DNA from: Solobacterium sp.
GTDB lineage: Bacteria > Bacillota_I > Bacilli_A > Erysipelotrichales > Erysipelotrichaceae
NCBI GenBank assembly: GCA_017469355.1
Contig: JAFUGM010000047.1
Location: 1-62,274, forward strand
DNA length: 62,274 bases
Direction: 5' to 3'
Shown: one piece after another, positions 259 to 2,095 of the stretch
Layout: each line of letters begins with the position of its first letter
Position numbering within the stretch: position 1 is the stretch's first letter
Translations under genes and position numbers: made by a program
Notes under the pieces: model-generated
Database searches by the model: none
Told to the model about the DNA's origin: nothing
Seen by the model: only the letters and a program-made list of their open reading frames with translations

Positions 259-1566
259 TTAGAGGAAGGCAGCCATATACAACGGTAATGTGATAATCCC
301 ATCGGACGATATACCTATATTTCCATCCACAAACTTATATCCGAATGTGATTCCTTCTTTGTTTTTTATGATTGTCTTCATGGAGTTGGCTCGAGTATTT
401 CCGCTTTTTACTTCAATCGGAATAACATTGCCATCACGTTCAATGATAAAGTCCAGTTCTTTCTTTGTGGTTTCGTTCTTATAGAAATAAAGGGAGCATC
501 CATTTTTGTGAAGGGCATCCGCGATGGCACACTCATATAAACCGCCTTTGGTGTTTCCGGTCAGCGTATTTTCAACAATATGTTGTTTTAAAGAGAAGTC
601 CTTCATGGAAATCAGTAATGACATATCGGTGGTATAGATTCTGAAAAAATCATCCCGGGCGTAATCACTCAGGTCATATTTCACATCTGTAACAAGTCTG
701 CACATGTGAACCATATCCGCTCTGAGCAGCCAATCAATACTCGAATAATACTTCTGGGCTCTGGCCCCATGTTCAATCTCTTTGTACTGAAATTTATGAT
801 TTTCCTTATCGAGGAGCTGCTTGGCTAACGTAAGATAACATTTTTCTGCTTTCAGTTTTTCTTCTGCCGCCGCATAGTGGGCGATATCGTATTGATATCC
901 CTGAAGCAGGTTTCTCTGTACGGTATCCACAGCCCTGAAATCGTTTGTGTCGATATATGTCTGAACGGCTTCTGGCATCCCTCCAATTGCGGTGAATAAT
1001 CTGAAATAGTTCATCATCTGATTGTGAATTGAGGAAGGGATTGGTTCTTTGGCTTCAAGATACGTTTTGAGTGAGCGGGTTATATCTTCTGATAGCCCTA
1101 ATCCCCATAAGAATTCTTCAAAGTCCAGCCCATACATTCTAAGATAGTTAACATATCCTACGGGATAAGATGATGCCCTGTTATAGTCAATGCCAAGCAA
1201 TGACCCTGAAGCGATTACATCAAACCGATTATCTAATGCCCAGAACTTCAGTGATGTCAGTGCTTCCGGACATTCCTGTATTTCATCCAGGAAAATCAAT
1301 GTATGTTCTGGAGTGATCTTCTTTTCCGGAAAGCGGAACCTCAGACCCATAACCATATGATCAACTGTGAGATCCCCTGAAAATACTTCTGCAGCAGAAG
1401 GAGTCTCCTTAAAATTGATTTCTACGACTTCCTCATATTGTTCTTCACCAAAACGTTCAATCGCAAATGTCTTTCCGGTTTGTCGTGCGCCCTGAACGAT
1501 TAAACATTTCCTGTTTTTGGTTTCTGCCCAATGATTCAGTTGTTTGAAAATCTTTCGCTTCAGCAT
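259..1566 (-). CDS. AAA+ ATPase with DUF4143 and PD-(D/E)XK-like C-terminus
   Basis: 435 aa. Walker A GARQTGKT lies near residues 26-33 and Walker B LIFLDEIQE near 89-97. The middle carries GGMPEAV, typical of the AAA_14/DUF4143 family. The C-terminus has ELDFII followed by PIEVKSG, the D...ExK layout of the PD-(D/E)XK nuclease fold. The ATG at 1566 follows a GGAG Shine-Dalgarno sequence. Proteins of this family are common solitary genes in gut bacteria and archaea and their role is not settled. The gene stands alone, and its promoter is covered by a four-copy repeat array (1584-1688), so self-regulation is a reasonable inference. Nuclease activity is not shown by the sequence alone. The family call is secure; the function is open. 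Confidence 0.9.
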   Translation of the reverse strand: MLKRKIFKQLNHWAETKNRKCLIVQGARQTGKTFAIERFGEEQYEEVVEINFKETPSAAEVFSGDLTVDHMVMGLRFRFPEKKITPEHTLIFLDEIQECPEALTSLKFWALDNRFDVIASGSLLGIDYNRASSYPVGYVNYLRMYGLDFEEFLWGLGLSEDITRSLKTYLEAKEPIPSSIHNQMMNYFRLFTAIGGMPEAVQTYIDTNDFRAVDTVQRNLLQGYQYDIAHYAAAEEKLKAEKCYLTLAKQLLDKENHKFQYKEIEHGARAQKYYSSIDWLLRADMVHMCRLVTDVKYDLSDYARDDFFRIYTTDMSLLISMKDFSLKQHIVENTLTGNTKGGLYECAIADALHKNGCSLYFYKNETTKKELDFIIERDGNVIPIEVKSGNTRANSMKTIIKNKEGITFGYKFVDGNIGISSDGIITLPLYMAAFL

Positions 1567-1583
1567 AACACTCCATCTTCATT

Positions 1584-1688
1584 AACATTTTATATCCGTC
1601 CCTGAATATCTATCAACATTTTGGAAGCTAAAAATGTAATTTTAATCAACATTTTAGACGCTTAAAATGTGCTGTTAATCAACATTTT
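1584..1688 (-). repeat. Four-copy AACATTTT array over the ATPase promoter
   Basis: AACATTTT occurs at 1584, 1615, 1648 and 1681, all in the same orientation, with 31, 33 and 33 bp steps (about three helical turns). Copies 3 and 4 share the longer TTAATCAACATTTT. Copies 2 and 3 also form inverted repeats: ACATTTT-N8-AAAATGT (1616-1637) and ACATTTTA-N6-TAAAATGT (1649-1670). The region 1567-2022 holds nothing else convincing except the tRNA-Val terminator. Confidence 0.8.
1589..1616 (-). promoter_or_regulatory. Promoter of the DUF4143 ATPase
   Basis: On the minus strand TTGATA (1616-1611) and TATAAA (1594-1589) are separated by 16 nt, 23 nt upstream of the ATG. Both hexamers lie inside copies of the AAAATGTTRAT repeat, so anything that binds the repeat would cover the promoter. 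Confidence 0.65.
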
Positions 1689-1916: not shown

Positions 1917-1946
1917 AAAAAAATAACGGTTTTCTCAACCGCTATT
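1917..1946 (-). terminator. Terminator downstream of tRNA-Val
   Basis: On the minus strand a 10-bp stem (AATAGCGGTT / AACCGTTATT with one G-U pair) is followed by a run of seven T. It lies about 75 nt beyond the tRNA 3' end. Confidence 0.7.
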
Positions 1947-2022
1947 CTTATCGCCATTCGAAGGTTACCATCGCATAAGATTTAATGATCTTAAATGATG
2001 GGTTCGTATTGGCACTGTTAAG

Positions 2023-2095
2023 TGAGCGCTAAGGGACTCGAACCCATGACCCCTTCCACGTCAAGGAAGTGCTCTCCCAACTGAGCTAAGCACTC
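2023..2095 (-). tRNA. tRNA-Val (anticodon GAC)
   Basis: 73 nt cloverleaf. The acceptor arms GAGTGCT and AGCGCTC pair over 7 bp, the D-arm has TTAGCTCAGTTGGGAGAGC, the anticodon loop TTGACGT gives GAC, and the T-arm contains GGTTCGAGTCC. The CCA end is not encoded. Confidence 0.95.

Follow-up and report, generated by a model that had tools for sequence, protein, structure and literature searches.

MalT, a STAND/AAA regulator, binds repeated boxes at promoters. In RepA iterons, ParR-parC and TubR-tubC, direct repeats of fixed period lie at the promoter of the gene for the protein that binds them, and the operators of prophage repressors combine one layout with many lineage-specific words, by which co-resident relatives are kept separate (heteroimmunity). 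In IniR, an SSO1545-like ATPase domain is combined with binding to promoters (PMC5760070), and Rx1 provides an example of an NLR NB-ARC domain in a protein that acts on DNA (PMC4599002). The candidate defence system PDC-S01 (AAA_14-DUF4143, COG1373) is described in PMC12988326 as an ATPase fused to a PD-(D/E)XK domain that ranks fourth in frequency among prokaryotic defence systems; validation is given there as still pending for most such candidates, and its passages on PDC-S01 do not mention an upstream repeat array. In the open-access papers searched on DUF4143, COG1373 and PDC-S01, no earlier description of the arrays reported below was found, and papers naming DUF4143 or COG1373 were few and on other topics.

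The window, that is, the whole 62,274-nucleotide stretch of DNA that was analysed, contains a gene for an ATPase of the PDC-S01 type, preceded by an array of direct repeats. We infer binding and repression, and consider it probable that the array is an autoregulatory operator bound cooperatively by the ATPase encoded next to it. The features of the locus are:

259..1566, minus strand: ATPase gene with AAA_14 (PF13173) and DUF4143 (PF13635), 435 aa, PADLOC PDC-S01 (from ORF, Pfam and PADLOC).
1571..1574, minus strand: GGAG resembling a ribosome-binding site, with 4 bases between it and the ATG at 1566-1564 (from sequence).
1581..1591, minus strand: array copy 4, degenerate, AAAATGTTAAT, overlapping the predicted -10 (from sequence and promoter scan).
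1589..1616, minus strand: predicted promoter, TTGATA-16-TATAAA, or TTGATA-18-TAAAAT ending at 1587, inside copies 3 and 4 (consensus match only).
1612..1622, minus strand: array copy 3, core AAAATGTTGAT, overlapping the -35-like TTGATA at 1616-1611 (from sequence and promoter scan).
1631..1637, plus strand: inverted partner AAAATGT, lying between copies 3 and 2 and forming the half of the unit that is less well conserved (from sequence).
1645..1655, minus strand: array copy 2, core AAAATGTTGAT (from sequence).
1664..1670, plus strand: inverted partner AAAATGT between copies 2 and 1 (from sequence).
1678..1688, minus strand: array copy 1, gene-distal, core AAAATGTTGAT (from sequence; core conserved in 83 homologues).

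An earlier note on this DNA had described a four-copy repeat with inverted partners between the copies and both promoter hexamers within copies, and each of these observations was reproduced. On the plus strand the 8-mer AACATTTT starts at 1584, 1615, 1648 and 1681, in steps of 31, 33 and 33 bp. A longer plus-strand core, ATCAACATTTT, is common to three copies (1612-1622, 1645-1655 and 1678-1688), and the fourth (1581-1591), ATTAACATTTT, differs from it by one mismatch; read on the gene strand, AAAATGTTGAT is thus exact in three copies and has one mismatch in the fourth. Such an array is not expected by chance, since none of 40,000 locally matched 300-bp random sequences contained an 8-mer with four copies at 30-34-bp steps. 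The inverted partners, AAAATGT, lie at 1631-1637 and 1664-1670. The predicted -35 (TTGATA, 1616-1611) falls in copy 3, and the predicted -10, either TATAAA at 1594-1589 as read from the sequence or TAAAAT at 1592-1587 as called by the scan, falls in copy 4. The note had also held that the repeats are not seen elsewhere in the window. This is right for the array, which is the sole three-copy array with 30-34-bp steps in the 62 kb, but not for the 8-mer, which occurs five more times, once within the ATPase gene itself at 837; it is therefore the array that is unique and not the word. Beyond the array, window positions 1917-2024, adjoining a tRNA-Val gene, have a 90% identical copy in the host genome (G000:C4:170-276).

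A genome scan for close homologues gave 80 loci, about 66-79% identical. Their hosts were mostly Lachnospiraceae, with Erysipelotrichaceae, spirochaetes and metagenome-assembled genomes labelled Riflebacteria, Bacteroides and Succinivibrio; the taxon labels of such assemblies are fallible, and Bullifex porci is a cultured spirochaete isolate. Upstream regions of 83 close homologues were analysed, four contigs being seen twice, so that 79 or fewer are distinct. The earlier note had proposed looking upstream of homologues for similarly spaced repeats, and these were present in 83/83 (79 or fewer distinct), as two to five copies of the 11-bp core AAAATGTTGAT. Three copies were found in 46, two in 24, four in 12 and five in one, and 144 of the 156 steps between adjacent copies were 32 or 33 bp. 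The core is near-invariant, the TTCC preceding it is well kept and the inverted partner (ACATTTT) is kept at ~60-77% per base, whereas the rest of the unit is near random; because copies were picked by their core, the degree of its conservation is overestimated, but the abrupt boundary of conservation is not. Of 190 host-family genomes searched for the exact array pattern, five contained it, always directly upstream of an orthologue of 69% identity or more, and the 185 without a close orthologue lacked it. No second array was found elsewhere in these genomes, and the 2.7-Mb host genome contains the core word at seven places, three of them within the array. In one orthologue (L097) three copies have switched in concert from AAAATGTTGAT to ATTATGTTGAT. 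Reading a contact residue from this switch was given up, K363R being the only unusual residue in the L097 protein. DNA comparison for an empty insertion site returned mainly tRNA matches.

The same spacing recurs in far more distant relatives, with other words. Among 58 family representatives (below 65% identity), 28 had repeated 14-mers at a distance of 32 bp and 26 at 33 bp, where shuffling expects 0.12-0.14, and no other spacing stood out except multiples (64-66, 96-99). The three-copy score exceeded the 99th percentile of shuffles (31) in 36 of the 58. As a control, the same level was exceeded in 4/222 neighbouring promoters and in 0/55 other promoters of the window; one of the four positive neighbours precedes another DUF4143 reading frame and one another AAA-type ATPase. 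When 186 AAA_14-DUF4143 homologues were tested, 170 had a two- or three-copy array and 16 had none. The 170 include nine further PDC-S01-like paralogues from the host genome itself, about 27-38% identical to the window protein, each of which has two to four direct repeats of its own, spaced by about 29-34 bp, in a different word, for example TGGCTCTAATTTTG, AAAGTCGCTTGGAA, CCTCATAAAATGTG and TGGCAGAACGGATA. Named plasmid and phage records carried an array in 13 of 15 cases (p of 0.02 or less against shuffles; L323 is without an array and L324 was not scored as positive), covering six phyla: Segatella and Prevotella (Bacteroidota), Collinsella (Actinomycetota), Vibrio, Acinetobacter and Glaesserella (Pseudomonadota), Criblamydia (Chlamydiota), Fusobacterium animalis (Fusobacteriota), and three Bacillota plasmids, together with one unverified faecal phage contig. 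Thus, the suggestion that the repeats are private to this gene applies to the words, which are private to each ATPase lineage, but not to the layout, whose 32-33-bp period is widespread. In one lineage after another the period slightly exceeds three helical turns.

Where the arrays lie relative to the promoter bears on whether they act as DNA or as RNA. Promoters in the window, the orthologues and the divergent members are all consensus calls, and on these the best predicted -10 precedes the first copy by 0-30 bp in 50 orthologues, falls within the array in 14 and closely follows it in 11, while in divergent members it is inside the array or at most 35 bp after it in 41/49 representatives. The commonest single position, 10-11 bp before the first copy (45 orthologues, the largest group), would place the array in the transcript, as expected if the repeats acted as a tandem-hairpin RNA leader, either a type III toxin-antitoxin RNA or an attenuator, with its promoter upstream. 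The unit can also form an AAAATGT/ACATTTT stem, with all 7 bases paired in 83/218 units. However, the window gene, 25 orthologues and most divergent members have their predicted promoter within or downstream of the array, and if the window prediction is right, copies 1-3 are upstream of the start site and outside the mRNA. The left arm of the stem is nearly constant but the right arm drifts, and only 7/28 left-arm variants are still fully paired; in divergent lineages the stems are barely longer than those of shuffled units (5.15 versus 4.37 bp). An Rfam search matched only a tRNA, and no terminator-like site was found between the window array and the gene. We therefore regard an RNA leader as very unlikely. 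The type III toxin-antitoxin version was rejected on the predicted promoter within the window array, the lack of compensatory pairing and of a terminator-like site, and an AAA ATPase where a ToxN-type toxin would be expected. With the predicted promoter before, inside or after the array according to lineage, the arrays appear to cover it in differing registers, which suits a DNA operator and not a single RNA leader. What recurs is a repeated site over the gene's own predicted promoter, conserved together with the gene, as autoregulation would have it.

If the array is an operator, its reader could be the ATPase or a transcription factor of the host, and comparison of words with proteins helps to separate the two. 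The word was shared by 96-97% of protein pairs at 65% identity or more, by 42% at 55-65%, and by about 3%, which is background, below 45%. Over 114 members the Mantel rank correlation between word and protein was 0.24, a value reached in 0/500 permutations. Among representatives below 65% identity it was about 0; the signal is saturated there, as expected of a fast-evolving site, and covariation of word and protein is accordingly claimed only within lineages. Paralogues in the same genome differ in word and orthologues across phyla share it, the one in Bullifex porci included. Orthogonality between the host-genome paralogues is incomplete, 6/45 pairs of words being above the shuffled 95% level (e.g. 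L006/L008). A column comparison of orthologues with paralogues singled out no one specificity region. Because the word goes with the protein rather than with the host genome, the encoded ATPase is favoured as the reader of the array. Binding by the ATPase is itself deduced, which leaves room for a host factor, but such a factor would have to account for ten homologues in one genome with different words and one shared period, for a word kept across different phyla, and for the absence of the array from the 185 family genomes that have no close orthologue. Each lineage would require a conserved factor of its own, transferred along with the ATPase though not adjacent to it. We judge this highly improbable.

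The protein carries both domains of the AAA_14-DUF4143 family, PF13173 (E = 6e-22, 78.4 bits, cut-off 27) and PF13635 (E = 7e-29, 101.1 bits, cut-off 28.1), and matches the PADLOC PDC-S01 profile over its full length (E = 1.4e-142, residues 1-434 of 435), so that its assignment to PDC-S01 rests on two domains in one protein and a full-length match. A sequence search of solved structures gave no match. In the AlphaFold2 model (pLDDT 81, pTM 0.84) the AAA core gives way to a region at 234-292 with the order helix-strand-helix-strand (helix 234-253, strand 261-264, helix 268-282, strand 286-292). For residues 1-323 of the model the best solved match was the archaeal ATPase 2qen (Z 15.5, 256 aligned, 4.2 A), followed by the archaeal ATPase 2fna/SSO1545 (Z 14.8, 261 aligned, 4.5 A), CED-4 and plant NLRs; in Foldseek, the maltose-system structure 8bob ranked fourth. 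From the secondary structure and these partial fold matches, a winged-helix-like DNA reader after the AAA core is plausible, in a region that includes a stretch with pLDDT near 42-62. A separate model of residues 205-435 had a pLDDT of 58 and was left out of the fold reading.

The C-terminal part contains a PD-(D/E)XK-like signature, ELDFII...IPIEVKSG. Together with the ATPase and PD-(D/E)XK fusion given for PDC-S01 in PMC12988326, this raises the alternative that the array serves mainly as a cis-acting site at which an ATPase-nuclease is targeted or assembled, in a partition-, immunity- or sensing-like role, with promoter control secondary or absent. Copies of fixed period do resemble iteron and partition sites, their number varies from 2 to 5, and they often reach beyond what is needed to block a promoter. 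Yet in nearly all lineages the copies lie close against the predicted promoter, the search of the family genomes gave no second array, and the array-like matches in viral contigs do not lie near DUF4143 genes. We consider this alternative quite unlikely. Scanning viral contigs for the unit and for paired cores gave no clear 32/33-bp peak and no match near a DUF4143 relative, so the array-like matches were taken as chance; the viral contigs also gave no protein relative.

The host genome contains 23 DUF4143 genes, ten of them PDC-S01-like. The ATPase, called solitary in the earlier note, is thus solitary locally but not genome-wide, and 23 DUF4143 proteins are unusually many for a single candidate defence family. 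Among the thirteen genes outside the PDC-S01-like group, six (L286, L287, L289, L301, L303 and L305) have strong inverted repeats in the upstream 130 bp examined, such as the long repeat TTAGGCAAATCTAAAG...CTTTAGATTTGCCTAA; these could be operators, or some could be terminators of the preceding gene. Two others (L298 and L299) have direct repeats spaced by 23 bp, about two helical turns (CTGAAAAGTGCTCA and CTTCCGAT). This suggests that self-operators may be common in the wider DUF4143 family, the PDC-S01-like branch being marked by direct arrays of 32/33-bp period. Upstream of an AAA-ATPase_like (PF09820) gene (L309), whose product has an apparent helix-turn-helix at its N-terminus, TTATTTCCGATAA words are repeated, and self-operators may extend to that family too. 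Two neighbours of window orthologues have repeats of their own: an nSTAND/AAA_14-like ATPase gene (L107:5771) has three upstream AAGATATAAAAGGA-like repeats at 29-30-bp steps, and a second, short DUF4143 reading frame with NERD similarity (L088:857-1450) has upstream repeats at 33 and 33 bp.

In the autoregulatory operator that we propose, the winged-helix-like region after the AAA domain would read the array word and several ATPase protomers would lie side by side on copies every 32-33 bp. Positioned over their own promoter, they would repress their own gene, and the repression may be switched by ATP state. The recognition word would evolve in each lineage and the spacing would stay fixed, because it is, we suggest, set by the geometry of the protein. 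Lineage-specific words would then allow paralogues in one genome to be regulated largely separately. A role of ATP and a role of the ATPase in defence are both putative. A more elaborate version, in which the ATPase-nuclease is parked silent on its private 32/33-bp array until a disturbance, such as infection, derepresses the gene and releases active protein, seems to us unlikely; if true, the many private words would keep paralogues of one genome as independent sensors.

A predicted binding site with a fixed 32/33-bp geometry and a word particular to each lineage gives a biochemical handle on a very common defence candidate. Dozens of natural protein-site pairs, ten of them in one genome, are available for work on DNA binding, specificity and regulation, and form a natural data set on how a winged-helix-like ATPase may change its DNA word at constant spacing. 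As a nucleotide signature, the array may also aid the recognition of functional members and of true start codons.

Compared with the described systems, the window ATPase would be like MalT and IniR in acting at a promoter, and 8bob, the fourth-ranked Foldseek match, is a maltose-system structure. MalT and IniR, however, regulate other genes through a separate C-terminal DNA-binding domain, whereas the window array lies on the gene of the ATPase itself, the protein ends in a nuclease-like part and the search gave no further target array. Iteron and partition arrays mark replication or segregation loci, while the ATPase arrays precede stand-alone genes; the contig that carries the window array is chromosome-like and gave no partner gene, and the word changes between lineages. 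The prophage repressor operators likewise have lineage-specific words, but those are palindromes for small helix-turn-helix dimers, whereas the present sites are 32/33-bp direct repeats and the putative reader is an AAA ATPase.
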